Of a stretch of 64,000 nucleotides of DNA, positions 8,598 to 54,309 are shown in pieces. Under the pieces are notes generated by a model. It was given only the letters and a program-made list of their open reading frames with translations. It was not told the origin of the DNA and did no database searches. Source of the stretch: Antedon bifida. Lineage: Eukaryota; Echinodermata; Crinoidea; Comatulida; Antedonidae. The stretch is from the NCBI GenBank assembly GCA_963402885.1, contig OY727102.1:8432001-8496000 (forward strand). Direction: 5' to 3'. Each line of letters opens with the position of its first letter. The stretch's first letter is position 1. The position numbers and the translations under genes were made by a program.

Positions 8598-8654
8598 TAA
8601 CATATCTCTGATTTGTTTATATCTAGGGGTTATTTATTTGATTATAAATGTTAA

Positions 8655-9200: not shown

Positions 9201-9297
9201 TTAACATATTACATCCAAAAAAATGAACGCCTCCCCCGAAAAAACACCTCCCTCAAATAAACGTACAGCTAAAAACTTTGACCTGAACAATTTGAAT

Positions 9298-9660: not shown

Positions 9661-9740
9661 ATTTAAAATTCAAAAGCTTTTAATTGTTCCGAAAGTCACA
9701 AATCTGCTGCGTATCATGGACACATTTGACAGAGTAGTAG

Positions 9741-20685: not shown

Positions 20686-20689
20686 GTTA

Positions 20690-21035: not shown

Positions 21036-21194
21036 CTTAATGTAGTAAATAAAAATCAACACAACGATCAACACATTCTTTGTACACTTTTATTTTAAGG
21101 TCTGATAAACTAAATTATAATATTAAAACAATTTAATTTAATTTTTTTTTCTTTTATTACTAAAATATATTCATTTCATAATGACGTTTCATAA

Positions 21195-21415
21195 TATTCA
21201 TAACCTAACATATTCATTTCTTAAACATTTTAAACACATTCACTTCTTAGCGTATTCATTTTTTAGCATATTTATTTCTTGGCATATTTATTTCTTAACA
21301 TTCGTTTCTTACCGTATTCATGTTTTAACACATTCATTATCTCAACATCATTTCCTAACATAATCATATTTTAGCATATTAATTTCTTAAAATATTCATT
21401 TCTTAACATTTTTTA
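21195..21415. repeat. Degenerate short tandem repeat (ATTCATTTCTTAACAT-like)
   Basis: About a dozen diverged units of roughly 16-22 bp of the form CATATTCATTTCTTAA. Confidence 0.7.
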
Positions 21416-21419
21416 TTTA

Positions 21420-22835: not shown

Positions 22836-22896
22836 TTCACCTAAAGGTGTCATTTAACAAATGTGGCGCAAATATTTGGTTTCTATTATGGCCCTG

Positions 22897-23916: not shown

Positions 23917-24166
23917 CTGGACTCTTGGGCAACACCCTTAAAATAGTCCTGCGACCGCCCCTGTTAGCTTACCGCGCAACGCGTTCATCGCGTCGCATGG
24001 TAGCATAATTGCGCGCTAGGTATCCATCACAACAGCTAGCTATAGCAACTTAACAACACAAATCATCTACAGCTTGATATATCAACTGTGTATGAAATAC
24101 TGAGCGATAAATTCCGAATTATCTTCGTAATTATTATCAATTTAATTAAGTTATTGCGTACAAACA

Positions 24167-32550: not shown

Positions 32551-33746
32551 ATACACTGCAAAGTCAATATTTTGACAAAGTTATACAAAGTTATGTTCAC
32601 AAACATTAGGAGATATGCTGTTCACAAACATTAGGATATGCTGTCCACAAAAATCGTGGAAAGAATAAAGAAGATGAAAGAAGAAGATCCCGACAATCAC
32701 AAGGGTTATCCGCAACAAGTGGATAACCAAAAAACATAGAAAAAAGCAAGATGATTACAAGGAGTTATCCGCTTGTAGTGGATAACTAATAATAATTAAT
32801 ATAGATATAGATAATAACAAAAATTTCATACAATAACAATAGGTAATCATTTTATTCTAAATGATCACCTAATTATACAAGTACAGTCAGTACCAGTGTT
32901 TGAAACAGTTTTTATCCTTTTACTCTTAAGCTCTCTACACTTTATGTGACAATTAAATGTGCCCATTTTAAGGACACAATGATTTTTGGGCACATCACAC
33001 AATTTTCATCAAACTGATAGTGTATTATTCATTAAAAAAACAAACAATTAGCATTATTACTAGAGTGTTTGGTTATAATTGAGTATACAGTATTCTACAA
33101 TAAACAATAGACATTTTAGAATAGCCATCTAAATGCATATTATATTTTAGTAATTGTACCTTTTAATAAGCATTTACTGGTATTAACATTAATTAATAAT
33201 TTGGAATGAATTGTGCATAAATAGGATAAGTAGAATTTTGTAAACATGTTCACTGTACAACCAAAACTAATGAAGAAGATTCTCTACATTAAGCAACTGA
33301 ATTCTCCCAACACAAAAATTGTCTGACTATATAATATCTTATTATCAGATTTTGATATAATATGTTCCCTTTTACCAATTCAGTAATGTTGATTCATATA
33401 TATATTTATGGTAAGCTAACTTAACATGATTTTGCTAATTAATTATTTGGGAAAAGAACATTAATATCTGCTTGATTTGAATATAGACACACTGTACATT
33501 TATAGTGGCATTGAAGAAAACAAATCCTAAATGTCAACTTAAGACCTGGTTTGCTATTTAACACAGATATGTTGTTTTTCTTTACAATATAAGTGCTTCT
33601 AGTAAATAACTAAAACAAATGAGCCTAGCAGTCGGTGGAAGAGGTATGAATGCCAGGCTAGTGATCTGAAAGTAAAGTAGTGGCTTCAAGCCTACTGGAG
33701 AACAACATGTACGAGTTCAGCAAAACATCTGAATAAACAAAGCTGA
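32551..33746. other. 3' flank of PTS
   Basis: AT-rich, probably including the PTS 3' untranslated region. TTTATT at 32851 (AATAAA on the minus strand) is one possible signal. Nothing else is recognised. Confidence 0.4.
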
Positions 33747-36700
33747 CTAACTTTCACTTATTTCTCCTTTGTACGACACAATATTCTTGTCAGTTTCGTG
33801 TAACTTAACCTCATACAGTAGTTCTGGATGTGGTAGATGCGCCAGCATCTGGTTCCAGATAAAGATGCTTACATTTTCCGATGTGCTCACACGAGTTTTG
33901 AAAAAGTCCACTTCCACATCTAGGTTTCGGTGATCTAGAGGCTCCATGATGGCTTTCTGTAAGATGATGAGAGACAATTTTTTGTGCTTTTGCTTTTCAG
34001 ACAACATTTTAAATCAAAAGAAAATAGCAAGCACTCTACCAATATGAAAAAGAAGTGGTTTTGTCAAAAATACACAGAACACTTTGAATTAATATTGATA
34101 TATAAACTGCTTTACCTACCTGCATTACATTCTTTAAATCGTTTATGTTTATCACCATTCCAGTCTTTGGATCCACCTTTAGGTAACAAAAAACATGTTT
34201 AGGTTAAACAAAACATATTTAGGTTGAACATAAACATGTTTAGGATAAACATGTTTAGGTTAAACAAAACATATTTAGGTTGAACATAAACATGTTTAGG
34301 TTAAACAAAATATATTTAGGTTGAACATAAACATGTTTAGGATAAACATGTTTAGGTTAAACAAAACATGTTTAGGTTAAACAAAACATCTTAAGGTTAA
34401 ATATACTGTACACATGATTAGGTTAACCATACACATGCTTAGGTTAAACATAACATGGCAATATTGCCATGGAGTAAATTGTTTAAACATAACTATTATC
34501 AACATATTCAGAGGCTTGTTGCTGTCTAAGGGGTGCGAACATTTTAAATGCGGGACTAACACTACCCCCTCCCCAATCCTCCAGGGCTGATCTGTAATAA
34601 AATTGTGAGAAATGAAGCTGCTAGGTCCCCGGAAAGTCTCCAGAACCACCCAACCATGGTTAGAGCTAAGCTAAGAAAATTTTGAAAAATAGAGCTGTTA
34701 GGTCCCCAGGGAATGAACTTATACTTCGAAATATGAATCGTAATTTATAAGTATCCAGGAACAGCTCTATGGTTGGGACAGAGCTAAGAAACTAGAGCTG
34801 CAGGCAGTGTCCCTCCAGCCTTCGCCCTGATATTATAAACATATAATTATTACAAAACATAACTATCTTACCTTGCCTCTTAAAATAACTTCAACTGAAA
34901 TATAAAACAAAAATAACATTAGTTTGTCAATGGCATCATAATCAGAAAGCGATGAGAGGGAAATTTAAATATCATGGTAAATGTGATCCTAGTGGATAGT
35001 GTCATTGCAGATCTCCCAACTCTCCTGATAATGTTAGGAGAAAAAAAAGTAGATGAAAATATTAATATTCATTAGTCAACGCTTTAGCTTTGCACAAATA
35101 AATTTGCATAATGGAAAAAAGGCTTGTATTTAGCACATTTCAATAGCATTTCTGCTGAACATTTTTCCACAAGGAAAGCCCTCATCAAGAAACGTCATCT
35201 TTAGCCTCAATGCAGGTCGAAAAAGTAGGGACAGAGGGAATAATTTTTGCACCACAATTGAAGCTAGTATTTAACATCTGGTCCCATTTCTGTCGTAAAT
35301 TTATTCACACAGTATTTAAACACACATTTTGTGCCTAATCAACCATTAAAAAAAAACCATCTGCCCTAGATTATTAAGCACCTCCAAAATGCAAATCAGA
35401 ATGTGAGCTTCAAATAACACATACATTCATAAATAAATTCAGTAGTCTGCTCCATACAAAGATGGCAGCCTTCAGTACTAATATGCGATAGTTTAAATGT
35501 CATAATACAAAACAATACGCTTTTGCAATAAGTTTTTGGTTTAAATTCAAAAGGCAAGGCATGCATCCCTGCTGATACTCTTAACCAGTACATTATTTGT
35601 ATACTGGTTTGCTAAATGTTGATTAAATCCTCTAATGCTTTTGTGCCACACCACCTTTTACTAATTTTTAAAGGCTTACTGGGTTGTTGTAAAATTTATT
35701 ATAATAAAAATGTTTCTTGTACCTGTATAATTATGTCCATGTCCATTTGGATTGTTACACTTTCCATAAACTTGTTTATTTTCTTCATGTGTAAAATAAA
35801 TACTATGAAAAAAAATGAAGAAAACAACTTTATCCCTTCGTTACATGACCAATCAATTCATCTATCAATTCCAACATATTGTAAACCAATTGAACTTTAT
35901 GGACTTTGCAAGAGACATTTTTTAAATCTATATATATACAAGGCAAACACAAAAAGTTTGTCCTCTATGCACGCCGCGGTACAACTTCCGATTGGTGTAA
36001 ATTTTGCACTCAACATCAATCTTGCAACAGAGATGGTCATGGTCTATATAAAAAGTTTGTAAACCAAATATTTATTAAATTATGACTTATTAAATATTTT
36101 AAAAATTACCACTGGATCAAAAGGCTATGAAATATGGAATTTTCAGAGGGCGTCATTGACTATAAAAGCAGGAACCAAGAAAAAAACCACAGCATTACCG
36201 TTCAGAGAGGTGAGTCTATAGGGTATAGAAAAGCCACGTGGTCGTGGAATACTTCAGTTCACTTCCATTTGTAAGAATAAACATTTATAGGATGATTTAT
36301 GTAGGTTATAACTATTATTGATATATAGTTCTAAAATTTAAAGTGCAGGCTCTACGTTTATTCGTTTTCTTTCATTTAGCGTGCAAAATCGTACATTGGC
36401 TATGCCACCTGTATTGTAACAATGGGAATGCGAATTATCCTATGTTATACACTGAGGTTTGAACTTAGTATTCTTCATTATTCTACTAATCCGCCGAATA
36501 ATTACCAGCTCATCATTGGTACAGATTCTTATACCTATTTCCTATACCTTTTGACGCCTTTCATGATTTTGTTTAATATTAACAAAATGTTCTAGCAATA
36601 CTTTCGAATTCGTAAATAACAGTGGACTTGCCTTTTGAACTTCAGATTATGGATGGTACCCAAAACTTGCAAGAATTTAAAATATAGTGTAAAATGTTCT

Positions 36701-37423
36701 GTATTTATTTTTGTTTCAATTAATTTTACTGCATACATTGAATACTTATAATAAGCATTTAGCCTACCAGACGTATTTAATGTTAAACTTAATTTCAATT
36801 CGTTTTGTATCAATGGATATAAAGCATAGAAAATGAGACTTCAATTGTAACTCCTGCATATATTATAATTTTGCATACGTTTGACAAGTTTCCTCGGCAC
36901 TGTTGAAAAATATGTTAATCAGCGGGCTCATACCCGTCGAAGATGGGTACTAATGCTAGTACACTATATAAACAAGTAACCTCTGACCTCCTTGTCCATA
37001 GATAACTTTACCCCAACTGCAAAATTTTAGGTAATTTCCTAAAAAGTACCGCATGACAAAGCTTTATGAAACAATGACATTTGTAGTTTTTCAAAAGCTT
37101 TTCCAACTGTTTCGATTTATTGTTTTTCATATTTTGCATCTCAATGTGATCCAATTATATTACCAATTGTACCAATTTATCAATGTACTATGTTTTTACT
37201 CATTATCGAACTTGTTTATTTCATTATTATGTGTGGAGAATGTGTTATTGAATAAATGAATGAGCCTATGTTATAACACAATAAATTAAGAAATTACCAT
37301 GTACCTGTGAAGTCTGTGAGATGCAGAAAATTTCTCTATACGTCTAACATATGCAACTGGTGAACTAATCGTTTGAAGATCTTCTAAGCTTATCTGGGCT
37401 GCCATTGCTGCTGATAATACAAT
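33747..37423 (-). CDS. PTS: 6-pyruvoyltetrahydropterin synthase (5 exons, 156 aa from the internal Met)
   Basis: Converts 7,8-dihydroneopterin triphosphate to 6-pyruvoyltetrahydropterin in tetrahydrobiopterin synthesis. Exons 37423-37305 (ATG at 37405), 35802-35723, 34894-34872, 34176-34120 and 33956-33747; GT-AG, phases 2,1,0,0. From that Met the product is 156 residues, near the usual 140-150. Zinc ligands are His30 (FSASHRL), His55 and His57 (NGHGHNY). Catalytic residues are Cys49 (YGKCN) and the Asp95-His96 pair (PLDHRNLD). Glu141 (LHETD) is the pterin anchor. All family motifs are intact. The first exon begins with a strong pyrimidine-tract acceptor 18 nt before ATG, and those 18 nt are open and in frame, so an upstream exon must exist: either untranslated or the DNA-binding exon at 38183-38653. 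Confidence 0.93.
34190..34450. repeat. Minisatellite of AACATGTTTAGG/AACATATTTAGG units
   Basis: About a dozen units of 18-22 bp arranged in higher-order blocks (AAACATGTTTAGGTTAAAC alternating with AACATATTTAGGTTGAACAT). It lies in the PTS intron, starting about 14 bp from the acceptor edge of exon 34176-34120. Confidence 0.85.
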
Positions 37424-37711
37424 CTAAAAAGAAGAAGAAGAAGAATAGAAAACAAGTGTCCAAACACAAGATTAACAACGTATAAACCAAGATTGTAATT
37501 CTCTATGCACTCAATATTAACAAGTGGGTACCATCATATTTCCAAAAAATGAAATCATTATCATATTTAATGTTATTACATCATCCACCAAATAAAACTA
37601 TAATGCAAAGTGATAAAAAATAACAATACAAGGTTAATTTTTAAACAATTTATGGAATAAAACAAATTTACTGTAAAATTTTAGCCAATTATAGAAGTTA
37701 ACATGCCCAAG

Positions 37712-37785
37712 GGTAGACTAGAATGTATGGTTTGGTTTAACCACGCCCCAACAGGGTAGACTAGAATGTATGGTTTGGTTTAAAA
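37712..37785. repeat. Two 43-bp direct repeats
   Basis: GGGTAGACTAGAATGTATGG followed by TTTGGTTTA occurs twice 43 bp apart, in the intron upstream of PTS exon 1. Confidence 0.85.
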
Positions 37786-37879
37786 TGCTCACATTTATAA
37801 CATAAGGTAACAAGTCCAAATCATTAATATCTCACTCAAATCAAATTTTATATATATTTAAATTTATTTATGTATTTTT

Positions 37880-38031
37880 ATTTTTATGTCTTTGGCACAT
37901 GTGGCCAAGGATTACCAATAGTAAATGAATCACTGTCTTATCAGATAGGTAGTAATCTTCCTTATACAGGGACTATTTTGTGAACTAGTTCACCGGGGTA
38001 ACTCCTACTCATTTCAAATGATGAACTGGGT

Positions 38032-38062
<31 letters not shown>

Positions 38063-38100
38063 TTGTTCCACCACCAGAACTAGGAGCATGTCAGTCTAAA
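37880..38100 (-). repeat. Dispersed repeat L, copy 2
   Basis: Inverted copy of 18640-18840. It lies between the DNA-binding exon and the first PTS exon, so it occupies the intron of the proposed fusion. Confidence 0.65.
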
Positions 38101-38182
38101 CATAATAAAATGGAGAATGTGTAAATTACAAATAATTTTAATTTCAAATATTATTATTATTGCTATCATATTAATTGCTTAC

Positions 38183-38653
38183 TTCTTCTGCATTTTGAAA
38201 TAATTGCTGCTCAGTTTCACGTTTTTGTCTACGAGCAATTTGTCTTGCAGTACTTAGGTTATGGCGTTGAAGAAACCGCTGTACCCACGATGAGCGTGCT
38301 TTGAACATGTGTTCCGGGATGTTTCGTTCTCGAGCAAATTCCATAGCTTTATCCCGAATATCGGAATACTTTACCGAAATGCCTTGGGCATCTAGATTGC
38401 GTATCCAAGTAACCAAGTCATCTTCGATGTCTGGATGCCGCATGGCATATCGTGTCGACCCAGGAGTAGTCAAGGTGGATATGGCACCTGCAAGGGAATG
38501 TCGTTTCCGCCATTTACGTATTGACGACTCCGGAACTTTAAATTCTCTTCCCGCTGCACAGTTACCAACTTGTTTGGCTTTCTCGATCACCTTCATCTTG
38601 AACGATAGTGAATGAAATTCTCGTGGTTTTGGCGATTGAACAACAGAATTTCC
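38183..38653 (-). CDS. Exon encoding pogo/Tc5 (CENP-B-like) DNA-binding domain
   Basis: A single open exon of 157 codons, phase 0 at both ends, with acceptor GATAG at 38654 and donor GTAAGC at 38182. The first half (LSFKMKVIEKAKQ, NCAAGREFKVPESSIRKWRK) is the N-terminal psq-like helix-turn-helix of pogo transposases. The second half (HPDIEDDLVTWIRN, YSDIRDKAMEFARE, FKARSSWVQRFLQRHN) is the HTH_Tnp_Tc5/CENPB second half. I found no DDE catalytic domain in the surrounding 20 kb, so this is a DNA-binding module without its nuclease. Two upstream exons (54199-54309, 46548-46610) fit it in phase 0. The next exon downstream on the strand is the first PTS exon, also in phase 0. It could be a domesticated gene, a host-transposase fusion, or the 5' half of a decayed pogo element. 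Confidence 0.85.
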
Positions 38654-40439
38654 CTATCAACATAAATAATGAAAACAACAAATAAACAAACTATAATCCC
38701 AAAAATACAATATTTCTTAAAAAATGATAATTATCTCATTTTGTTGGAGACCAGCTTTCTAATTAAAAAGATGCTATCACTTCACAAAAGATTATCAATA
38801 GGATTTGAACCCAGTGCCTAAATTAAAATGTGGCGGTAGGTACAGTATACATTTTGAATATAGTGAAAAACTCTTCTTTTTTTTAAGTACAGTCTGAACA
38901 TGTATGTATTGGGTCAAGCTGAGTAGTTTTGATTTTAGAAATGCAGTGGTAATGTAGGCAACTGTTTACTGTACATTGTATCATAAGAAAACCATTATCC
39001 AGCATTGCACAAATTCATTCAGTCAAATATTTACCTGCAATTTTGGACATTTTGTATTAAATAATGCATATATAAACTTTAAAAACATTAAACCAGGTCA
39101 TTCTTTGCCTTAAATGTATGTTCTAAGGTTAATTATCATAAAAAGTAAAAAACAATGCACTACCTAAGTAGCTCGAGTTGAATGTTCTCTTTTAAATTAT
39201 TAGAATCTTATTTTTCACACATTTTTAACCACTTGAGATGGAAAAAATTATCGTAACAGTAGGTCCATATATTATTTATTTTTGCATAAAATGTAGTTTG
39301 TGCCCTTAAATTAGGTAAAAAACGTAGGTAAAGTGTCTTTAAAGTAATACTGCACTGTCTGTTGGAAAACTGAAATCAAAGAATACAGTATATCACAAGA
39401 ATGATTAATCTGCGATTTTTGCATTAGAAATTTGTAACAGAGCGTAGGGCGGATGAATGATATATTAAATAAATTAAAGAATACTTGATTTAATAGATAT
39501 TATACATGACACATTAAATAGAATGCAATTATAAAACATTTTATAAAGCACTCCTACAGAAAATTATTTGCCACCATGCTAAATTATTATTATAAACTAT
39601 TAGTCTGGTAGTTGAAGGGTTTAACGGAAAAAATTGTTCAAAAAAATGTTTACATCATTGGAAGCTGAATATTATGGAGAATAACATATCGAAAATCAAC
39701 AAAAATCCATCGAGTTTTTCTTTTATTTTAAATAAAAATTGCCCACTGTAATTAATATGATTGTATATTTTAGCAACTGCTAACTGTAGAGGCTTCTATT
39801 TGGTCTTAAATTGTTTACAACATATATACAGTATTTCTATTTTCTCTAATAAAAATGTTTGTCAAAAAATGGCAGGAAAGGTCATTTTTCTAAACATTTA
39901 TGTCTTACACACTTAAAATTGGTCTTAAATTGTTCATAAAGTGTGTTGAACATAAATAAGGATTTACATTCATTGAATATCAGCTTCCTCATACAGTAGT
40001 ACACTTGGCCGAATAGTATTGAAAGTGGAACTGTTAGACAATAAACAATGATCTTACATAACACTTTGCCTTATAGATTCCTATAAAGCATAGTACAATT
40101 TTGAAACATGGTACCTAATTTACATAAAGAAGCATAGGTTTACTGTAGTGGGTAAATTGATCTCAATCCAGAGTGCTTCAACATCATCTCTTAAGGTACT
40201 TAATTCTTTAAATACGATTCTAGATTTAATATACATAAAATACCACCATCTGATTTACAGTTTGATCTATCTAATCTACATACTGTATATCATAACCATC
40301 TATAGTGATTTCCATGCTATCAATTTTACAATTTAGCCAATTGTTTCAGAAAGGCATAACATCCAAATCATTAATGTGAAGGAAAACCCTTTTTGAGTAA
40401 ACAATTGTGATAATAGACACGATGATTCGTATTTAATCA
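38654..40439. other. Intron/intergenic DNA with repeat K at 39180-39345
   Basis: AT-rich. Block 39180-39345 (AAAAAATTATCG, ATAAAATGTAGTTTGTG, GTGTCTTTAAA) is repeated at 53610-53762. No coding exon was recognised, although a short one could be missed. Confidence 0.45.
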
Positions 40440-41580
40440 ACTAAAATTAGCACCCTGGGAATACTTCCAAAAGAAAAACTTGTCGCAAAATGAGACAAAC
40501 CCAATTGTGTTTTGTATGTAACATTAGGGTTGAGGGATAAGGGAAGACGATGGGTGCAAAGAAGAACAATTTTTAAATATATTCTTTTATCCACTCAGTA
40601 TTGAAATATTTGTTTTCATGTTTTATAAATAATATACAACTAATAAAACATTTGCGATTTAATACTTTGTTGAAACTACTGTCATAGTCGATTGAAATAC
40701 ATATGTAACGATACACCACTACAACGTTTATATTTTTTAAATTAATACAAACTTTGAAAAGAAACTGTCAGTAATAAAGTTTATTTGTATGTGTTTATAT
40801 ATCTAACAGTACCCACACTCACAGTAAGAAATGTGCTCTTCAAATGGCGAAAAATGTATTATACAGTATTGTCACAATTTGATATACACAACTTATAACT
40901 ACAGTATGCGCAATACTATATCTAAAGATTTTAAGTTTATCCCTAAGGGCCCATAAATTTACCTACTTGTGCACCAAATGATTATAATGTGAGACTGAGA
41001 CTACAAACGTATTATTAAATCTATCAAAATAGTATTTTCGGCTTGTCTTCAACATGATGCTGTACTCGAGCTGTTTGACTGATTTTCAGCTATTAAAAAC
41101 AATTATTGTAAAAGGAGATAGGTAAATGCGAAGCATCCTCATATTATTGTGTGCTAGTATTTTTCAGCATCGACATCCATTAGACAGTGTACAGTATACC
41201 ACACCTATTTTGGACAAATCATTGAACTTAAATTCTTTTTAATCGTCAATAACTAATTATCTAAACTCAACTTAATTAGTAAACAGGGTTACATCAGGTG
41301 GTTAAAATCAGTGCCGAATGTATGAACCAACTTTATAAAGCATCGACATTCATTAGACAGTGTATACCACGATCGGAATACACCCTATTTGGGGAAAATT
41401 GTTGAAACTAAATTTGTTTTAATCGTCAATAACTAATTCTATAACTCAACTTAATTAGTAAACAGGGTTACGTTAGATGTTTAAAATAAGTACCAAAAGT
41501 ACGAATCAACTTTATATACCATCGAGTAAAAATTCTAGAAGTAACGCGCGATTTACCAAATTTTGCCCTTACATAGATTA
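40440..41580 (-). mobile_element. H-family repeat, copy b
   Basis: The same order of blocks as copy a. The end part is duplicated in tandem: two units starting GCATCGACAT at about 41168 and 41340 each run to AACTTTATA. It contains the uninterrupted TTTATATACCATCGAG site corresponding to the Q insertion point. Confidence 0.65.
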
Positions 41581-41599
41581 TTAAAGACATAGGCGAGTC

Positions 41600-44500
41600 A
41601 CGCAAACCTCTCCTTCAATTCTCTCTTCCTATTCTACAATACTGAGGAGAAGTAGTTATGTTCAGAAATTAAGTTATGTAAAAATCATATCAACGTTCCT
41701 GCTTGGAGTCAGTCAATTGTATAAAAGTTTAAAAAATATTTGAATCTGAAATATACACATAGGTCGAGCCAATTTCAATGGTAAGGACGGTTAAGTGAGG
41801 GGTCATCTGCACCACCTCAGTTTCATCATGGTTTGGGCTGAGGTAAAAAAATGGAAACATGGACCTTTTAGTTAGTAAAATCGTATCAAATTTCTCAATT
41901 CTTTAACACTAATGTTGGGAAAGTCACGCCGTCTCCGCACACATAGACTGCCCAAATCATTATGCTATAATATCAAATTTAAACTCTTGCAATATTTCAC
42001 TTTAAACTATACCCAGTTTCTTTCTTGCTTGTTTATGAAAATCTAAAGACAAATCAAAGTAAACCGTTACTAGTATGACTATGTTATAATAATCCTAAAG
42101 AACATTATTGTTACTCATCCTCCTCTTTGTTGGATTTACAAATAATTTAAGAAGCAAATAAATGAATGAACATTGCATAGTAAACCATCATACTACATCA
42201 GTGTGCATGTGATTTTAATTAAAACTAGTATCCTAAATATAGGTTTGTAAATAAAGATTACTATGCAACTAATTTACATATTTTTGTTTGTTTATAGTAA
42301 AAAGATTCAATATAACTATGTTGCATCAAACAGCTTATTGTAATGGAGGGAGACATTGGAACATCTGAACAAAACAAACCTAAGTTCTTTAGAATTGTTA
42401 AATTTGTAATTTTTAGTTTTAATTAAAATCGCATATACTGAGTAGTATGATGTTTAAGGTTTACTGTGCAATGTCATAACAAACATGGTAGCTTCTTAAT
42501 TATTATATTAGTTATAAATTATTATAAGTTAGTAGCTAGGTTCACATTCAGAAATTATTGCGAGTTTCTTTATCATGATGTTCTATATGAACCTGCAGGA
42601 TATCGTTATCTTGTTTATCACGTTAATTCTGGTTTACATGCTCTCGGAGAGCATGTTAATTATTATGATCTTACGAAGTTATCATGATATATTAGACACC
42701 GTTATATGCAGAGATGAAATTCAACCAATCAGCACTTGGTTATTTACTGCATCATTGGCCACCCACTGGAAGAAGTCACCATTGTTGTTGTTTTGATTTT
42801 TTTGACCGCCAGCTTCAACAAGTTGTTTTTGTTTTGATAGGTTAATTGCTTAGGTTTAACCCTTTATATCGTTTCGGACATCATACATCAAGTTAGTTAG
42901 ACGAATAAAGAATAAAATACCTGATCAAAATCTGGAGAATGAATCAGAAATTAATGTGAAACAGCCAGGACTATTTTGAAAGCTAGACCATCCAACCCAC
43001 TCGATATCCACTACAAACGCATGACGACCTTTACGAAAAGGCTGACACTTCTGCTATTTGCACGCACACCACAACTTGCCATATATTGATTTTTAACCAC
43101 GAAATAGAAAATAAAATATCGTTGTGGTGCATGTGTAGATGATTTCATATTCTTCAAGATATAGACTTGACGGGGAACTGATTTTTTAAACAAAGCTAAT
43201 TCCTAAATAGACATCGTAAATGAATAATTTCTAGGGCCTAGGCTAGACCAAAATTTTTTCTTTTCCACAAAGTAAAACATGTATTGTACCTAAACGGTAG
43301 GGGTAGGACCGACTTACTAACTATCCTATATGCATATTAAATATTGTTATCATGAGTTTTAGTAAATACATTAATGCCTACTGTGTTAAAATTAATGTAA
43401 TGTAATAATAAAATATTCGATGTAGTACAGTTGTGGCGTGATTTAATAGACAAATGTTTCATGTGACGGGACACTAAAAAATATAAATAGCCTGGTCAAT
43501 AAATTCGTCCATGTTCCATCCGTCGTGCAAATAGAGAGTGTATGGTGGAATGTTTGTTTGTGTAAATAAATCACTTACCAAGCTGTCCTGCTAGACTTAG
43601 GCCTGGCTCCTATAGCCTACAGCAAACAATCAGCCAGTTGGCCTAGTGAAAACATTTTCACTAAAAATGCTTGCTAAAGTCATTTTATTGACATCTCAAA
43701 GTTCAATGAATCTCTTTTAACAAAGAAAACCTACTTAGCTTCATAGAGCAGCAATTCCAGGTATTATATCTATTGCAACAGCATACCACTGTACAACTAC
43801 AAGTAGGTATCCCAATGAAGCAAATTTTCGTTACGGCGATTCCAACACTTTTATGAAATTTCAAAAAGTGACGTGTCTTTGAAGTTAAAAATAAATTATT
43901 TCTTATGTACAGTACCCATGTCAACAAAAATTATATGTCTGGAAAGATCTTGTTTAAACATTTTTTAACAATATTTTATGTTGTATTTCAGAAATACCTA
44001 CCTGTCAATATAAATAATGTTACTAAAATACATATTACATTCTATGCAATGCAAAAAAAAAAGAAGTCAATTCATACACTGGTTCAAAAGTTACGAATCA
44101 TAATAAAAGACAGGACCTTTTTGGAAAAAAAGAGCGCAAAAAGCACCAAGACCAATTTTGGAGGGTGATATGTAAAAAAAAAATTTTCGAGGATCCCCCC
44201 AAAAAATAGTCACCAACTTTTTAGAAAGCCTGGGTAACATAATTAAATTTTGGTATAAATTAATGGTATTACATGGTAACGGAATTACATTGTGTTATGT
44301 ATAAAGTAATAATATACCTTAATTCACTACATATGTTTTAGTACTGTATAAATGAATGAAATTAATCAACAATTAATTAATAAATAATGAATCCAATTCC
44401 AAAACAAAACAAATCCATAGTATATAGAATCACAGTACAGTATACGGTAGATACTATATTTCCGATCAATGCTAAAATCATTAAAATTCATTCCCTATAC

Positions 44501-45765
44501 GGGCACCACTAAGGATCTATCTGAATCAAAATAGGTTGATGAAGGTTAATAGTCATAAAGCTGATGACAGTAGTGAATAAACTTATATTTAATAATGATT
44601 AGTTTGATGATGGTAGTACAGTGTATACAACAGCTAGTTAAAGTTCAATAGTGATAACACTGACGATCTAAGCTAAAAGTGGGCAGTTTTAGGCACTTCG
44701 GCCAAAATAATATTAGAGAAATTTTGGCCAGGCTCTTGATTATGACAATGAAAATTAAACTTCACAATTCAATTTGTTAAAATTTTTAAATTTGGAACAT
44801 TTTGTTTCTAGTTATAGTGTAGATGACTTAAATACAGTGGACAGATCATGCATATATTGACTAAGCTCTGTGAACCACAGATAGGCGCATTTTTTTTTAT
44901 TATTATAGTAGGTAGATCCAACCAATTCATGTGATGATTTTTATCAAATCTGGTTTAAATGGGCATCAATCATTGTTAAAGTTCCATGAGAACACTAAAA
45001 AACAAAAAAACAAACAAAAAATTATTATTTGATGTTCTATTCGAATCAATAATAATCAATAATTCTGTTACCATGTCATGTAATTCCGTTACCAGACAAA
45101 ACTAATCAAATGCAGATAAACTATGAAAATATCCGAAGTAAACTTGTATTAATAAATTAGCCACATCTTATGTCTACACTGTAATACCAATCATAATCTT
45201 TAGTTGTTTATAGTTTTCAGATGGAATCTCAGGTTTCAAGTTAAAAATTGAATTATCAATGTTCTGTGTAATTCCGTTACCAAAATAAAAGTTACCAGAA
45301 TATCTGTTCAACCAGTTAAATTACAAAAGTTTAGGTTCAGTAAGTTCCTTTTGATTATTACTAAAAGAAAAAGTACAATCATTAATTTGAATTTTTACAT
45401 TAAGATACCCAGTACAAGATCTCTCTTACTCTCTCATGCCTCGAAAAGAAATGATGGTGGTGAGGGCATAGTTCATGGACTATACTATTTGTGGAGAGGG
45501 GTGTTCAATAAAAATTTCTATTTTTCGAGGTACAGCATATCTCACTCTTTGAGGAGAAAGGGCTATTGTCGGTTTATCCAGGTAAGCAATAGGCACGAAA
45601 TAGACCAAAAGATTAATTTCTTCTTACTTACCTGTTTTGTTGTATGAGTTTTATAAGTAAAGATTTTATTATTATATATCGGTATCTTTATTTCAATAAA
45701 AAACATAAGTAAAATATCAAAAATATAAGTGCTATGGCAACCAAAAAGTTGAATTGGGGCACTGA
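41600..45765. other. Long AT-rich stretch, no gene seen
   Basis: Probably intron of the minus-strand DNA-binding gene if its exons are linked. The phrase AATTCCGTTACCA recurs at about 45063, 45085 and 45271, with an inverse near 44278, suggesting a decayed repeat. Short open frames here have no support. Confidence 0.4.
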
Positions 45766-45769
45766 TTTA

Positions 45770-46240
45770 CAATTGACTGTAAATACCATTTAAAGCGCAA
45801 ATTTCTTACTGTGAGTGTGGGTACATTAGATATATAAACACATATACAAATAAACTTTTACTGACTCAACTTCTCAACGTTTGTATTAATTAATAACTAC
45901 AAAAAATATAAATAAATATATAATATATATAAAATAAATCGACTATGACGGTGACAGATTATTATTAAATAACAAATGTTTACTGTGTTTATTATTATGT
46001 GTATATTATGAAAACAAAAATTTGTTACTGAGTGGATAAAAGAATATAAAATTGTTCCTCTTTGCACCCGTCCTCTTCCCTATCCCTAATGTTATTGTTA
46101 CATACAAAACACAAATAGGGTTTGTTTAAATTTGACTTATTTGTGACAAGTTTCTCTTTCGGAAGTAATTCTCAGGGTGCTAATTTACTCGCCAGTTTTT
46201 TAACACTGAAATTACTATGTGTATTCAAGAACCATCTAGT
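45770..46240 (+). mobile_element. H-family repeat, copy c
   Basis: Inverse orientation to copies a and b (TTTCTTACTGTGAGTGTGGGTAC; GAGTGGATAAAAGAATAT; TCAGGGTGCTAATTTA). It ends GAACCATCTAGT, compatible with the CTAG-T 3' border of a Helitron sense strand. Confidence 0.6.
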
Positions 46241-46547
46241 AAAATACAATTTGCAGTAATGAGCTCTTTAGGCAAAAAATAATGTAGTTCTGGTTTGTCG
46301 AAAAATTGAAATGACATAATGTATTTTGAACTTGCTACCATTATGAAGTGTTTTGGCCAGGCATTCTACTCTATGCATTATTCAAATTACATCATCATAA
46401 TCATTCATCAGTCGCATGGTTTAATTGTTGCTTTGGTGGTTTAAAGACTAATTTTGGTTATGCTAATAACAACAAATGACTTGATATCTGACCTCCAGGA
46501 TGGAGGAGGAACTTTAATATTATTTTACAACTGAAGTAAAGTCATAC

Positions 46548-46610
46548 CTGACTTGCAACATTGTTCAGGCTTGCTGGATCAGCGACCACAACAGCTGTAT
46601 GGGGATCAAT
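46548..46610 (-). CDS. Short coding exon, probable exon 2 of the DNA-binding-domain gene
   Basis: 63 nt between a TTTTTCAG acceptor and a GTATGA donor, phase 0 at both ends, encoding IDPHTAVVVADPASLNNVASQ. It is open on both flanks only within the exon, and its composition suits a nuclear-factor N-terminal region. The link to 54199-54309 and 38183-38653 rests on strand, phase and order only. Confidence 0.5.
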
Positions 46611-46751
46611 CTGAAAAAGAAACCAAGAAATTAATATTGCTGTAGCGTAGTAACAGTATTGCTGTAGCCGAGTACTGTACCTCCAAAAATCTGCTGAAGT
46701 TTTCGGTTGAAGTGCGCAATAGATCAATTTGTCTACTAGAGTGCGATTTTT

Positions 46752-47015
46752 AAAGTACTACTCCTCCCTTATTCGTTGTAGTATTGAGCTGGGATTTGGC
46801 ATGAATATACTAAAGGCACATGTCCTCAAAGCTATAGAGCCGGATTTTTTATTTTCAAACCGGATGCAGCCATATGACGTCTCGAAGATGGTACCATATA
46901 GCCGTATTTGGTAGGTTATTGATGTGTATGGGACGTCACATCCCGTCTTACGACGTCATTACAGCTTCATTTGCTGTACCCCGAGTATCGCACATTCATG
47001 CTTTTTTGTTAATTA
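46752..47015 (+). repeat. Direct repeat T, left copy
   Basis: Shares TACTCCTCCCTTATTCGTTG, GAGCTGGGATTTGGCATGAA, AACCGGATGCAGCCAT and CTGTACCCCGAGTATCGCAC with 47587-47826 in the same orientation. The two copies bracket both tRNA-like genes. Confidence 0.85.
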
Positions 47016-47080
47016 ATTTGTTTAATTAAGAAGCCACAATGTGTGACACACACCACAGCGTTATGTTGTTATATGCGGCC

Positions 47081-47153
47081 GGCTTCTTGGCGTAGTGGTT
47101 ATCACGTCTGTTTAACACACAGAAGGTCCCCGGTTAGAGACCGGGCAAAACCT
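47081..47153 (+). pseudogene. tRNA-Val(AAC)-like pseudogene 1
   Basis: The D-arm/A-box region CGTAGTGGTTATCACG and anticodon arm TCTGT-TTAACAC-ACAGA (anticodon AAC) are intact, but the acceptor stem has mismatches and the T loop reads TTAGAGA in place of the standard TTCGAAA, breaking the B box. It is therefore probably not expressed. Confidence 0.7.
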
Positions 47154-47347
47154 TCTTTTTTTTAACTTTATGGTGAAAACTACTGTATACGTGATATGAT
47201 ATAGTATATCTTTTTTAAATACTTATTTTGTGTAATCGGTAATTATCACTTTTACACATGTTTATTTTGCTTTTGGCTTATTACCATATTTATTTGTAAT
47301 TTAAATGGATTAAAAAACTTTGTGTAACCCACATTTTTGGTGTAAGA

Positions 47348-47420
47348 GGTTTCGTAGTGTAGTGGTTATCAAGTCTGCTTAACTCGAAGAAGGTCCTCAG
47401 TTCGAGCCCTGGCGAAAGCT
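47348..47420 (+). pseudogene. tRNA-Val(AAC)-like pseudogene 2
   Basis: The acceptor stem is nearly complete (GGTTTCG with CGAAAGC) and the B box GTTCGAGCC is readable, but the anticodon stem (TCTGC/GAAGA) and T stem are mispaired. Anticodon AAC. Its 3' flank (TATGGTGAAA, ACTGTATACGTAATATGATAT) matches that of pseudogene 1, so a unit of about 267 bp was duplicated. Confidence 0.65.
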
Positions 47421-47586
47421 ATTTTTCTTAAACTTATGGTGAAATATACTGTATACGTAATATGATATACCGGTAGAGTATCTCGTTTTATTACTCGGGG
47501 TACCTGAGTCTAGGACTCTCTCATGTTTTCCTCTTCTTCTTCCATCCGGACACTATTGAGTAAAAAATGCGACTTATAAGTTATAA

Positions 47587-47826
47587 AGTATAACTACTCC
47601 TCCCTTATTCGTTGTAGTATTGAGCTGGGATTTGGCATGAATATACTACTACAGAGCATGTCCTAGTCAAATCTACAGATTTTTTAATTTCAAACCGGAT
47701 GCAGCCATCACGTCTCGAAGATGATATTTGGTAGCGAGGTTATTGATGTGTATGTGTGACGTCTTATGACGTCTTTACAGCTTCTTTTGCTGTACCCCGA
47801 GTATCGCACATTCGTGCTTGTTAACA
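47587..47826 (+). repeat. Direct repeat T, right copy
   Basis: Partner of 46752-47015, with small deletions. The pair plus the tRNA unit could be a serial duplication or a miniature LTR-like structure; I could not find TG..CA ends or a target duplication. Confidence 0.85.
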
Positions 47827-48181
47827 TAAATTCTGATGATTTTTGCCATATAAGATGGGTTTTGATAATTGATAAACAAATAATTATCTGTCATTTGGTA
47901 GGTATTGCAACATTCTGAGTCTTGTTTGATTCCGTTTGGGTTTGTTTGGTGTTTTTAGTAGGACCGCATCTATATTATAAGTGAGAGAGTTTGTACGTTT
48001 GTCTGTAGGTTTGTCTGTTTGTTCGGTATACATATTTCTGTTTCTGCACGTAACCATACATATACGCATATCAAAATGACCACAATTGTATGTTGTAATC
48101 TATGTTGTAATGATGGAAAAAGCACTCTTGTGCCAATATCATCACCACCTCAATGTCTTATGTCGCTTTTGAATGGAACTA

Positions 48182-48880
48182 ATGCTGATTTCACTTTTAG
48201 CTGACATTAGGCTTTATAATTCAGCCTTCCAAATGACAAATTTTGGTTGTAAGCATCTCAATATACAAGGCTGGAATCCAAACTGTTCAGGGCCAAGTTT
48301 GTCATAAAATTGGCAGTTTACGGCCACATGCAGATGCTGCACCACAGTTTCTGCAAATATACTTTGTGGATAATAACTTGGAACAACAAACCCGTCGATC
48401 ATTATTCAGTTCTAAACTGAAACCACACATACTCCACACATTGAATGGACTATTACACCAACATAACAAATATATTCGTAATCTAAACATCGCCCTAGAA
48501 ATGGTCGATAATATTGATGACCCTAACATGAGAATTGTGATTCATGAGGACAAGCGACCTGCCAACCAGCATGCTCACAGGTACAACCTACCTACTAGAA
48601 ACGAGGTTGCCATTCTGATGCCCAACGAACTGTGTATGAATAGAGATATCGTTTTGCATGAACGAGAAGGAGGGTTATTACGGCACGTGTCAGAAGTACA
48701 CAGAGCGTATGATACACTTTAATACCCAATCCTTTTCATGCATGGAACTGATGGATATTCCATATATCTTCACACAGATGCTGGTCGTAAAATTACTCAA
48801 ATGCAATATTACCGATATCACATGATGTGTAGGTCAACTAACCATCTACTTTATTGCCGTAGACTGTTTCACAGTAGGCC
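48182..48880 (+). pseudogene. Helitron RepHel, N-terminal part
   Basis: Starts near DIRLYNSAFQMT and QGWNPN, then a frame break into the open segment 48243-48722 (IGSLRPHADAAPQFLQIYFVD, with RNEVAILMPNE), a stop at 48720, and YPILFMHGTDGY followed by YYRYHMM. This is the conserved Helitron-like N region. It is broken by the Penelope insertion at 48890. Confidence 0.85.
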
Positions 48881-48889
48881 TATGTAGTT

Positions 48890-49629
48890 TTTTTTTTTTT
48901 ATCTTTTGTGGTTAACTACCACCTTTATTCAACAATTACAGGATCTCATATATATATTTACATTATTTTCTGCATATTTTTTTGTTATGTTATCTATTAC
49001 AAAATATATTGCATGTTTAATGAAAAAAGTTGTTTAGTTATGAAACGTTTGTTAACTTATTTATCATAATTGTGTATCTTTCAGTTTATATTTGTATTTG
49101 ATTTGCCCTTTAGGGAAATGCTTAACAAGTGGTGTAGTATACCAGGCCACTGTCACAAGAAATGGCACTAACAAAATTGAAACATATGTTGGACTGACAG
49201 AAAATACATTTAAGTGTAGATACAATGGGCATACAAGCTCATTCTGTAATGAAAAGTATAAAAATAGTACAGCGCTTAGCTAACATGTTTGGAAACTAAA
49301 GATGACAACATTAAATATAATATTAAATGGCGAGTATTAGCCAAATGTAAGCCTTATTCCAATATAAGTAAACGCTGCAAACTATGTCTGCATGAGAAAT
49401 ATTTCATTATATATAAGCCTGATATTTGCTCTCTTAATCAAAGAAACGAATCATTTAGCACATGCAGACACAGAAGAAAATTCTTATTGAGATATAAAGG
49501 TTACTAATTAAAGACACCTATTGATAAATAGAACGGTTGAATATACAACTATTGTTTTGTTGCTTGCATATATTAACTATAAACAGTCTCTTCCTGATCA
49601 TTGTACTTCTAATTTACTTCTTCTTCTTC
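48890..49629 (+). mobile_element. 5'-truncated Penelope-like element
   Basis: A 740-bp insert between 15-bp duplications TAGGCCTATGTAGTT (48875-48889 and 49630-49644). It starts with a T-run and ends TTCTTCTTC. The only coding part is the C-terminal endonuclease domain (49092-49507). The Helitron reading resumes after the right duplication (AYVVDVFCKIETERLQYL). Confidence 0.88.
49092..49507 (+). pseudogene. Penelope GIY-YIG endonuclease domain
   Basis: Segments GVVYQATVTRNG, ETYVGLTENTFKCRYNGH, then after a stop and frameshift at about 49281 [29 protein letters not shown] and [12 protein letters not shown]. The order and spacing are those of the GIY-YIG nuclease of Penelope-like elements. 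The reverse transcriptase was lost by 5' truncation. Confidence 0.88.
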
Positions 49630-49633
49630 TAGG

Positions 49634-51251
49634 CCTATGTAGTTGATGTATTTTGTAAAATTGAGACTGAACGTTTACAGTACTTGAGAAGAGAGCAAAA
49701 GTCGTTGAGAGCAGACAGTTACCAAAATTGTAATTTTATCAGTCTGGATCAAAAATCAATCCCGAAGATATAGACTCCATCATTTCTGCTGAAATACCAA
49801 GCCCAACGACTGAACCAACATTTTATAATTTGGTAAAATCACACATGATTCATGGCCCCTGTGGACCACTAAAACTGAATAATCCATGTATGAAAGACAA
49901 TCACTGTACAAAACACTTCCCCAAGGAATTTCAACAGAACACTGTTCAGGGAAACGACTCATATCCAAAGTATAAACGAAGTTCACCAGAAGATGGGGGA
50001 CATGTCATTTCCATAATAAAGGTACTTGATGGTGAGATAATTCAAACAGACATCGATAATCGCTGGATTGTACCGTATAATAAAGAACTCCTGCGCCAGA
50101 TGGGCTGTCATACTAATGTAGAAATCTGCAGTTCAATCAAATGTATCAAATACGTTTTAAAATATGTACATAAAGGTTCTGATCAGGCCATATTCTCTGT
50201 TCAGACAATGGACGCTAATGGCGAGATTACTCAATATCAAGAAGCTAGATATGTCGGCAGCGATGCGGATACTCGGATTTTCCATTCACGAAAGATACCC
50301 TCCAGTGTTTCAGTTATGTATACACTTAGAAAATTGCCAACGAGATTACTTCATAGAAGAAAATTTACGTCAAATCGCTTTGTGGACCCCCAACCCCCAA
50401 AAAAAAAACTATGCTGACTGTATTTTTCACTCTCAAACCGATGACTTTGCACAATCACTACTTCATGTAGAAGTTCCTCAATATTATACATGGCATAACA
50501 AAGCTAAAAGGTGGAACCTTAGCAAACAAGGTGTACCATCCGAAAGCAGCCCAGGAGTTTTCAGGTCTTCATGTCTTGGAAGAGTGTATACGATTAGCCC
50601 AAAACAAAGAGCGTGTTACTGTACGAGACTATTACATGACACGAAAAGCGTGGCCCTAGGGACTTAAAGACCTTTAATAAAGTAGAATTTGACACCTATC
50701 ACGCCACATGTCTAGCTATGGGTCTGATTGATAATGACCAACATTACCACCGAGCTTTAGAAGAAGCTGCTTTAGCAAATACCGGAAAACTGTTCACAAT
50801 GATTCTAACAGCTTGCGAACCAAGTGACCCATTAATATTATGGGAACAACATAAGCATCGCATGTCAGATGACCTATTTTATAAGGCAGGTTTACCGTCT
50901 GACCATGAAGGTAGAGAGACATGTATCCTCCACAATGTTTACATTTAATTCAACAAGAGTTACTGAGAATCAGTGGAAAATCAGTTGAACACTAGGGCCT
51001 ACGGTCTACCAGTAGTCCAGTCACAGAACATTGAGCAACTCATGAACAAAGACTACATTTTTTATACTGATTATGACACCGACGAACAAGCGTTATTCAC
51101 TGCTGACAAAGAAAAATTTCTCACTGGTGAACAGAAAATCATTGCAACACACTTTTTACATATGGTCAACAACAAAATCCCTGGAATCGTGTTTTTAGAT
51201 GCCCCTGGCGGAACTGGCAAGACATTTCTTCTCAAGTATTTAGTGTTCTAA
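49634..51251 (+). pseudogene. Helitron RepHel, central part up to Walker A
   Basis: Segments in order: FCKIETERLQYLRREQKSLR, a deletion, PEDIDSIISAEIPSP, MIHGPCGPL, NHCTKHFPKEF, NVEICSSIKCIKYVLKYVHKG (Rep C-terminal region), several frame breaks between 50340 and 50990, and the helicase start GIVFLDAPGGTGKTFLL (Walker A). Homologues carry about 170 residues between LRADSYQN and PEDIDS, including the CNP and PHAH (HUH) motifs; these are absent. Everything after Walker A is also gone. The protein cannot be functional. Confidence 0.85.
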
Positions 51252-51803
51252 TATGTATATTACAAAGAGTCACTTTCTATCATTATTTCTATTGACAGTC
51301 AAGGTGTGATCTTTCAGTGTCATCAATGCAACTAACTCCCGCCCTGGGGCGGGTATCTTTGCTAGTAATATTATAAAACCTGCGTTTTTGTGTTGGCCAA
51401 AATATTTGACCTTTTTGATATTGCGGCACAGCAGACTGTTACTAATTACTTCTTTAATTATACTTCCCGATTGACTACTTTGGATATTTGACCTTAAAAT
51501 GTCAACTGGATGTTATTCTACTCAAGTCGACTTGGTTCAACAAGTCCACATGTCATTCATTGGGTCTGTTTCTGCTGAAAAAATAAAAATAATCGATTAT
51601 TGACCGCGTTGCAACTGAAAATTTTCTCCGACGTTAACCGGTTATCTGGAAATCGCTTTTTAAAAATCATGTCATCCATACCCACAACGCAGTTCAAATT
51701 ATAGAAGGCCGATGAGAGTTGGTTTGTTAAACATCATATCGCTGTCTATAACTCTCACATGTACTGTAGGATTAAAAATTAAACTCTTACGTAAAGCTAT
51801 ATT

Positions 51804-52627
51804 CAGGCAACACCCTAAATTTCATACTAAATGTTTTTTTCTGCCACTAATTAAAATTTAAATCCCATTTCATAATATTATATATGTGGCATCTGCAAGG
51901 GAAACCAGACATAAGTCGGAATTTTCAAAATTGAGATTAATACTGAATACTGAAACTACATAATCCAAGATTTAAAATGCTGAAAAAAATATCTTGATAC
52001 CATGTCTACTTCCAGAGATATCTCAGTCTAAAGTTTTGGTTGTTACAATCAGTGTTTTGAGAAAAATGCTTTTAAAGTTAAGTAACAGTAAATGACAACA
52101 ACAACAAAATAAACAGGGCGTCTAAGTTTACGCCTTAGCAAAAGGGTATTCTAATTAGTAATTGTTTTATTTCAATGAAACTTTGCACCTTCCTTAATTA
52201 ACTATTATTCTATTATTATGCAAAATTTCATTAAAATCAACCCAATGGAACACTTTCAATTATGAAAATCATACATAATTTACACCATCTTTTTAACCAA
52301 CATACTACACAAAATGTTAAAATGTTTCAGCTATCATTTTCTGTAAAAATAAAAAAATTTAATTTTTTTTTTGTAAAAAATGTTATCCTATTGTTTGTCG
52401 CTTATGTTTTACCGGCGGAAAAACCAGGCGTGATACGATCTGTTTGCTTCTGTAGCCCGATATAGATTGTCATTTCTATTTATCGTGAATTTTACGTGCG
52501 AGAGTACCATTTCTGGCCATCTAGGGGTGTCATTTAACAAAAATTCCCTGGCACAAATACTCAGTATCCACAGCCCTCTGAGGACTCTTGGGCAACCCCC
52601 TTAAAAATAGTCCTGCGACTGCCCCTG
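51804..52627 (+). mobile_element. G-family (hAT-like) element, copy 3, diverged
   Basis: Left part GGCAACACCC then TTTCATACTAAATGTTTTTT; right part TTTTACGTGCGAGAGTACCA and GTCCTGCGACTGCCCCTG. The extreme left tip is missing. The interior differs from copies 2 and 4. Confidence 0.7.
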
Positions 52628-52629
52628 AT

Positions 52630-54198
52630 ATTATTTGTAAAATAAACATCTAGCCCTAAACTACAACAGAATAATGATGTTACATTAATAAGGGCATGTC
52701 GACGAGAAAGTTTGTTTCGCTGTTGGTACTACTCTAGCCAGCCTACTGTAGGCTAAATATCTCTACCCAAAACAACCTGGAGTATCTCGCTATAATTCTC
52801 CCCCACAAAATAATAACAATCATATATTATTATTATCTCATCGATCATGTTGCTTATTGTCGATCGTGCAAACAAACAGCATTCTTTTTTTTGAGTGAGG
52901 GTTGCCCATACTCACAAGGTCAAAATGAGGTCAATAATCGCTATTTGTGTTGCAGCTAAAAACTGCTCTGCAAAAATCGGTTAAAACATGCAGTAATTGG
53001 TTAAAACATGCAATGGATTGAGTGTTTTTAATTGAGTAATTTTTTAATCGGTTATGTCATTTTGCGCCGTTTCTGCTGCACAAAAATAAATTAATCAACG
53101 GATTACTGGCAGTAACCCGTTTTTCTGTCTGAATATGTGGTTATATACTTTGCATGGGCAAGTATAATGACAGCGCACTCTGATAAAAGTACTGACAAAC
53201 TATTAAAATAAAAACAAATTCGGAACTACTGTATTTACGGTCATTGATTTGTTAATTATACAGTACACTATCCCTTCACTTTAAAATATATGTACCTGGC
53301 TAAAAAATTAAAGCAATACTCTGACTCTGAAATCAACACAAAAAGTAGTCGAAATTAGATGATGCGCTCGGACACAAACATTTTTCGTTGATATTTGATA
53401 TTTAGCGGAAACACGACACCCATTTGGATTCGTTTTATTTGTGTGTGTGTTTTTTTGTTGTTGTTATTTACACTTTTTTTTATTTCATGGTTTTTTATAT
53501 TTTGCAATTCTTTTGTGTGAGGATTCGTATGAAAAGTTACGATTCTTTTACTTGTTTACCTTTTACGCGATCAATCGAAGTTGGTGCATCACATCACAAT
53601 ATGAAAATATCAACTTATTTTCACATTTTTAACCGTTTATTGATGAAAAAAATTATCGCAATCAATAGGTTCATATAGTATTTATTTTTACATAAAATGT
53701 AGTGTGTGTCAGATTATAAAGGTCGAAAAAACATAGCCGTAGGCCCTCGGCCTAGTGTCTTTAAACAATTAATTAAATTTAAAAAATGAACGTGTTCACA
53801 GATTTTAAACATTTTTGTCAATGAATTGCAATTAATTTTCTCTATTTTTTTTATGTCCCTATGACATGTCTATGAGATGACTCGATCTGTTCCATTAATT
53901 AATTTTGTAATTTGTGTATGTCACTCTCTAGCCTAGCTAGGCCGGCATCCTCTATCTAGGCCTAGAGTAGAGGATAGTTAGGTAGGGCCTAGCCTACGCC
54001 TGCTGGGTCTGGTACCCACACTGGGCGCTACTACTAGCCTATAGGCCTAGCTAGGTATGGTCCATACCTAGCCAAGGCCCAAACCACCACACAGAGCCTG
54101 CTGAGAGGGGAATGAGAGGGGTCTCCTGTGTGGAAGCTAACCATTTTAATTTTTTTTATTTTATCGTGTTCCATGTCGTGTATAATTTCAAAACTCAC
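52630..54198. other. Intronic/intergenic DNA with repeat copies J and K
   Basis: 53310-53545 is the inverse of repeat J (29990-30240). 53610-53762 matches repeat K (39180-39345). The rest is AT-rich with a TAGGCCTAG-rich patch at 53930-54060. No exon was recognised. Confidence 0.5.
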
Positions 54199-54309
54199 TT
54201 CTACTAAGCCTATTGAATTCGGTACAGATTCCACCTTATCGGTAATAACTTCTACTATAGGCTGCTCGGCTAAATGCGCCTTTTCGGTAATAATCTGTTC
54301 GTCCGCCAT
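54199..54309 (-). CDS. Probable first coding exon of the DNA-binding-domain gene
   Basis: Starts at ATG 54309 (context ACAGTATGG), encodes 37 acidic residues (MADEQIITEKAHLAEQPIVE...), and ends at a GTGAGT donor in phase 0. No signal peptide. The next phase-0 exon on this strand is at 46548-46610. The intron of 7.6 kb between them contains the Helitron and tRNA-like copies. The model rests on splice logic only. Confidence 0.5.

Follow-up and report, generated by a model that had tools for sequence, protein, structure and literature searches.

A Passer-type pogo DNA-binding exon possibly spliced in frame to a PTPS gene in the crinoid Antedon bifida

Host-transposase fusion genes, which arise by transposase capture, are known as a general class. 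In SETMAR, as far as the account in PMC6326780 goes, a methylase is joined to a mariner transposase. In the pogo captures described in parts of PMC7386202, the transposase is joined to regulatory or dimerising parts, for example KRAB, zinc fingers or the dimerisation domain of CENP-B. Here, we analysed a 64,000-nt stretch of Antedon bifida DNA (assembly GCA_963402885.1, contig OY727102.1, positions 8,432,001 to 8,496,000 of the forward strand; hereafter the window), in which an exon for a pogo-type DNA-binding domain (DBD) lies upstream of a gene (PTS) for the tetrahydrobiopterin enzyme PTPS on the same strand. It was found that the sequence permits in-frame splicing of the two without proving it, and that such splicing is somewhat favoured by the strength of an acceptor and by the decay of CpG. 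An in-frame DBD-PTPS transcript is given an even chance of being at least one product of the locus.

The locus shares with SETMAR and other host-transposase fusions (as outlined in PMC6326780) a transposase DBD on an intact exon, which adjoins and is in frame with host exons and has splice sites at its edges. It differs from SETMAR in that the putative partner is a small-molecule enzyme, the DBD would be N-terminal, and the arrangement is known from sequence alone. With POGK, in the part of PMC7386202 that treats it, the exon has in common the Passer pair of domains, BrkDBD and HTH_Tnp_Tc5; but POGK keeps a DDE domain and KRAB, whereas here the putative partner is PTPS and a search of the window gave no significant DDE match. 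Two helix-turn-helix units are found both here and in the CENP-B DBD (PDB 1hlv), with BrkDBD in place of CENP-B_N. The PTPS half resembles animal PTPS (1b66, 3i2b) over the whole domain and in the active-site motifs, but it is preceded by a strong acceptor 18 nt ahead of its ATG and possibly by a 221-residue N-terminal extension. No paper on a PTPS-transposase chimera was found in the literature searched, most subscription journals being outside its scope.

An earlier sequence-only reading had proposed a fusion through an open chain of eight exons, the positions of which are given in Table 1. Reading and joining the exons bore out their limits, phases and splice sites: the N-terminal exons N1 and N2, joined to the DBD exon and to all five exons of PTS, gave 1,134 nt, i.e. 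377 codons plus the stop, with no internal stop and with GT and AG at all spliced borders. N2, the DBD exon and the acceptor of PTS exon 1 are all in phase 0, and the DBD exon does lie 759 bp from the first PTS exon, as had been claimed. An acceptor-like site of 6.9 bits is located 7 nt ahead of the N1 ATG, so N1 is possibly not the first exon of the mRNA. All splice scores are from matrices of general consensus frequencies, untrained on the A. bifida genome.

Table 1. Exons of the candidate chain and the gap between its two halves (window coordinates)
Feature	Position	Strand	Description
Exon N1	54199-54309	-	37 aa; ATG and acidic N-terminus; donor GTGAGT, 8.2 bits
Exon N2	46548-46610	-	21 aa; phase 0 to 0
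DBD exon	38183-38653	-	157 aa; BrkDBD and HTH_Tnp_Tc5; donor GTAAGC
Gap, putative intron or intergenic DNA	37424-38182	-	759 bp; DBD exon to PTS exon 1
PTS exon 1	37305-37423	-	18-nt open leader; ATG at 37405; acceptor 14.0 bits
PTS exon 2	35723-35802	-	From exon chain and PTPS structure-sequence matches
PTS exon 3	34872-34894	-	From exon chain and PTPS structure-sequence matches
PTS exon 4	34120-34176	-	From exon chain and PTPS structure-sequence matches
PTS exon 5, with stop TAG	33747-33956	-	Next AATAAA at 32856

The DBD exon matched the Pfam families PF03221 (HTH_Tnp_Tc5, E 6e-19) and PF09607 (BrkDBD, E 8e-6), both above the curated cut-offs, in agreement with the pogo/Tc5 assignment made earlier. 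This pair has been described for Passer-type pogo transposases (in the domain account of PMC7386202), and by these matches the exon is a Passer-type pogo DBD. The chain also matched the sequence of the CENP-B DBD (1hlv) with an E of 1e-4. An AlphaFold model built from a 5-row alignment, with a mean pLDDT of 77, was helical. The CENP-B DBD came first in the fold search with this model, with an E of 7.6e-3 and a TM-score of 0.35-0.39, and none of the 76 matches reached an E of 0.001; this weak match adds little. No relatives were confirmed in the prokaryote and viral collections, where 53 and 4 pattern matches, respectively, were obtained.

In the assembly (315.6 Mb, 27 contigs), the exon had at least seven matches at an E of 0.001 or better including itself, counts for repeats being lower bounds, and the next best was 35% identical. 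On contig C7 lie five of the remaining six (L002-L005 and L007), which are copies or fragments of a pogo-type element; among them, L003 carries BrkDBD, HTH_Tnp_Tc5 and DDE_1 in an open frame of 498 aa. Because the matches are few and the closest of them is distant, the exon appears to be a distant derivative, apparently in single copy, and its frame is intact over 157 codons. The sixth match (L006, 1483-2817, contig C15) is a 445-codon open frame with CENP-B_N, HTH_Tnp_Tc5 and DDE_1, i.e. another pogo-superfamily gene or element. When the window was searched with L003 and L006 by tblastn, the best match apart from the DBD exon itself had an E of 0.10 (17565-17777, plus strand), which is not significant, and with no significant match to a DDE catalytic domain, hidden DDE exons in the window were rejected. 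As this search supplied the DBD with no alternative 3' part, it lends support to a fusion.

The downstream gene, judged from its sequence matches, is a complete PTPS. It matched PDB 1b66 with an E of 5e-48 and 3i2b with an E of 1e-47, and PF01242 with 118 bits over profile positions 2-121 of 121; the score with NCBIfam TIGR00039 was 114.6 bits, under the cut-off of 125.5. The active-site motifs, ETD included, aligned with those of 1b66 and are retained; we take them to be the zinc-binding histidines and the catalytic Cys, Asp, His and Glu residues. In its own right, a minisatellite of TTTAGGTTAAACAAAACATG-like units (34178-34457) was seen to abut the acceptor of PTS exon 4.

The exons of the chain exceed chance expectation. 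On the minus strand between 33 and 55 kb, 15 candidates for internal exons in phase 0 at both ends were obtained with thresholds of at least 3 bits for the acceptor and 4 bits for the donor; 11 overlap the exons that make up the chain, leaving 4 outside it, and N2 comes first and the full DBD exon sixth. The join between DBD and PTS is less clearly beyond chance. The strong acceptor of PTS exon 1 and the open, in-frame 18-nt leader that the earlier reading had singled out were both recovered, with matching phase and a score of 14.02 bits. Only two of the 6,113 AGs on both strands of the window reach 14.0 bits (the other is at 57748), a threshold chosen after the score of PTS exon 1 was known. 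Because an acceptor is not required by an exon that is the first to code, something upstream is probably joined by splicing to PTS exon 1. The DBD donor at 38183 scores 7.2 bits; it shortly precedes the stop of the exon's frame and shortly follows the part homologous to L003. There are 61 donors of at least 7.2 bits on the minus strand of the 64 kb, so ∼6% of frames would have such a donor within their final 60 nt.

Germline-methylated gene bodies gradually lose CpG, and the gap was examined in this respect. In the crown-of-thorns sea star, figures given in PMC12550476 put methylation at 48-50% in introns, ∼12% in intergenic DNA and ∼5% in promoters. In Ciona, promoters are said in a section of PMC3827831 to be incompatible with methylation, and the unmethylated area at one transgene start extended from ∼800 bp upstream to 1 kb downstream. 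The gap contains 4 CpG with 16.4 expected, an observed/expected ratio (o/e) of 0.24 (Poisson P 3e-4 under an o/e of 1). Windows of 759 bp as low in CpG made up 1.5% of 2,065 overlapping windows across 104 kb, and 1.1% of the 1,915 outside 32.5-40 kb. The o/e was 0.18 in the 547 bp upstream of the DBD exon and 0.30 over most of the PTS gene (33000-35924); it was 1.03 in the 1 kb upstream of N1 and 0.96 in the 1 kb beyond PTS. On these counts the gap has the look of a methylated intron and not that of a methylated gene's promoter; this favours a single unit from N1 through PTS. The reading is based on local counts and the window distribution, not on segmentation: a two-state segmentation for one clean gene body was rejected as noisy, with self-transitions of 0.75 and 0.80 and low segments scattered over the 104 kb.

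The DBD exon might instead be a decaying or incidental transposon remnant, with N1 and N2 unrelated and no functional link to PTS. Pogo-type transposons are present in the assembly, L003 with its DDE_1 among them, and the exon as a whole is not depleted in CpG, as a younger piece might be: its o/e is 1.16 (27 CpG, 15 of them from arginine codons) vs 0.54 for the PTS exons together. However, the lack of a close copy and the 157 intact codons speak against a remnant. Codon positions bear on this as well. At sites spanning codon positions 3 and 1, the DBD exon has C before G in 3 of 19 cases vs 20 of 49 before other bases (one-sided P 0.044), a depletion like that of PTS (2/20 vs 20/54, P 0.02) and unlike L003 (31/80 vs 61/145). 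The argument is weakened by L006, which tends the same way as the DBD exon (9/70 vs 32/145, P 0.07), and by the sites spanning codon positions 2 and 3 of the DBD exon, which show no CpG depletion. Nor did terminal repeats point to an insertion. Among the 18 inverted pairs listed within 36.5-47.5 kb, the sole bracketing one (37655-37677/41402-41424, 23 nt, AT-rich, 83%) looked chance-like by eye; beyond this pair, no sign of a transposon insertion bracketed by terminal repeats was seen, although decayed terminal inverted repeats would escape such a listing. We regard a mere remnant as highly improbable.

Several observations weigh against a fused transcript. Read-through past the DBD donor gives Val-Ser-Asn and then a stop at 38173-38171, within 12 nt of the donor. 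AATAAA occurs at 37882 and 37868, within and next to the A-rich tail of a repeat (37877-38034) that is dispersed and has a second, 84.6% identical copy at 18680-18841. An acceptor at 38095 (7.4 bits) could end a DBD gene after 20 codons, and a leader exon of PTS might use either of two donors, 37994 and 37793 (6.8 and 7.2 bits); a further acceptor is located at 37597. PTS has a well-placed ATG of its own, preceded by a purine at -3 and followed by G at +4. A (TTC)n run is responsible for the score of the PTS exon 1 acceptor, and given the DBD donor and this acceptor, the phase match and the open leader together have an estimated chance of ∼1/3 × 0.75 = 1/4. Nor is CpG uniform. The part of PTS intron 1 at 35925-37000, which was not shown to be a repeat in the DNA compared, is CpG-normal (o/e 0.88). 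So are three other stretches inside the proposed unit, the 1 kb upstream of N2 (1.03), 41-42 kb (0.94) and 47-48 kb (1.01), all of which overlap repeats. Low-CpG stretches are common across the 104 kb, and the CpG test is uncalibrated against known promoters of the A. bifida genome.

As a rival reading, the locus might hold two neighbouring genes. N1, N2 and the DBD exon would then encode a domesticated, DBD-only regulator of 218 aa, with the acidic N-terminus and the pogo DBD, that ends in Val-Ser-Asn and whose transcript is polyadenylated at 37882/37868. PTS, complete with an ATG of its own, would be transcribed separately as a normal enzyme gene, with a short non-coding 5' exon joined to 37423. 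The in-frame stop directly after the DBD donor, the AATAAA and the alternative donors within the gap all fit this arrangement, and N1, N2 and the DBD would make a plausible small regulator by themselves. On the other side, the gap is depleted in CpG, unlike sea star promoters in the values quoted from PMC12550476, and the in-frame 18-nt leader and a donor near the domain end would have to be coincidences. We consider two genes quite possible, although short of an even chance.

A third arrangement is a shared unit that yields no fused protein. The PTS mRNA might skip the DBD exon by splicing N2 to PTS exon 1 in phase 0, or the DBD exon might act as an untranslated leader, with translation starting at the PTS ATG. 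The common phase 0 of N2, the DBD exon and the PTS exon 1 acceptor, the intron-like gap and the good context of the PTS ATG are all compatible with such a unit. Purely untranslated use of the DBD exon is, however, unlikely because its frame is intact over 157 codons, and we hold a shared unit of either kind to be very unlikely.

Taken together, the fusion proposed in the sequence-only reading stands in part. Its components are real, and the junction is made possible by the phase, the acceptor, the donor and the CpG-poor gap; splicing across it is unproven, and ordinary alternatives fit too. If the fused reading is correct, one transcription unit of ∼21 kb would start at or above N1 (54.3 kb), where we infer the promoter to lie, and would take in N2, the DBD exon and all exons of PTS. 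The full-length product would be a protein of 377 aa with an acidic N-terminus, a Passer/pogo DBD of two helix-turn-helix units and a complete PTPS. The DBD might stem from an ancient capture of part of a pogo transposase, with the donor of the exon now joining the strong acceptor just ahead of the former start codon of PTS. If transcripts continue past this donor to the stop and are polyadenylated at an AATAAA of the gap, the same unit may yield a DBD-only protein of 218 aa. PTPS is presumably hexameric, and a fused hexamer could array up to six DBDs, so that the enzyme would either oligomerise a DNA-binding protein or sit at chromatin.

Two further accounts, of the PTS exon 1 acceptor and of the spacing, were considered and set aside. 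Spliced-leader trans-splicing of the tunicate type at this acceptor seems improbable from the mitochondrial contig, in which tRNAs lie on both strands and AAA codons stand at asparagine sites, as in the echinoderm code and not as in tunicates. To our knowledge, echinoderms lack spliced leaders. The Ciona spliced leader plus one G had no exact match in the 21 loci examined. An operon was dismissed because the gap measures 759 bp, vs less than 100 bp between genes in candidate Ciona operons as these are defined in a part of PMC2760879, and because the organism is not Ciona.

The mitochondrial codons were read on contig C27 (15.8 kb; L010 and L022). Both of its strands carry protein genes, and the 11 tRNAs in its first 10 kb are likewise spread over the two strands. 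AAA was found in HA-AAA-GAS of cytochrome b and in V-AAA-TTFFDP and RVN-AAA-MSFWL of COX1, as in the echinoderm code; the gene names and the conservation of asparagine at these sites are our assumption. The same contig has an ND4L-like frame between ND4 and ND5; the usual place of ND4L is, we believe, after COX1.

Other features of the window were noted as well. In the interval between N1 and N2, open frames on the plus strand (48237-51251) resemble a broken element, presumably of the Helitron type; the last frame alone matched Pfam, namely PIF1 helicase with an E of 3.5e-5, just under the cut-off. Direct duplications of ∼96% identity lie ∼34-38 kb apart (23909-26051/61961-64000 and 27653-28252/61416-62015) and hold an open frame whose 105-bp tandem repeats encode KPPVAPKPxKKS motifs; no Pfam match was obtained for the frame. 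The start of a MAM domain (E 1e-7) is located at 14212-14448 on the minus strand. A dispersed repeat has inverted copies at 40444-40847 and 45786-46186 and more near 15.2-16.1 kb and 56.4-57.0 kb. The CpG o/e per kb was 1.14-1.49 at 2001-14000 and mostly 0.3-0.8 at 18001-27000 and 33001-53000, with a few kb near 1; this sharp contrast between blocks suggests mosaic germline methylation.

Once calibrated, the CpG test would offer a cheap ranking of candidate fusions, from sequence only, in animals with gene-body methylation. If the two halves are separate genes, the DBD-only, Passer-derived gene next to PTS would be an additional, invertebrate example of the domestication of pogo transposases. 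If they are joined, the locus would be a transposase capture onto a cofactor-making enzyme, in which the usual splicing route could tie metabolism to a DNA-binding module, and PTPS would be a natural oligomeriser for a pogo domain. The furthest-reaching form of this idea is that an echinoderm lineage makes its PTPS mainly or partly as a stable 377-aa DNA-binding protein. That seems unlikely; in such a case a hexamer with six pogo-type DBDs would place a metabolic enzyme on chromatin or turn it into the oligomeriser of a transcription factor.

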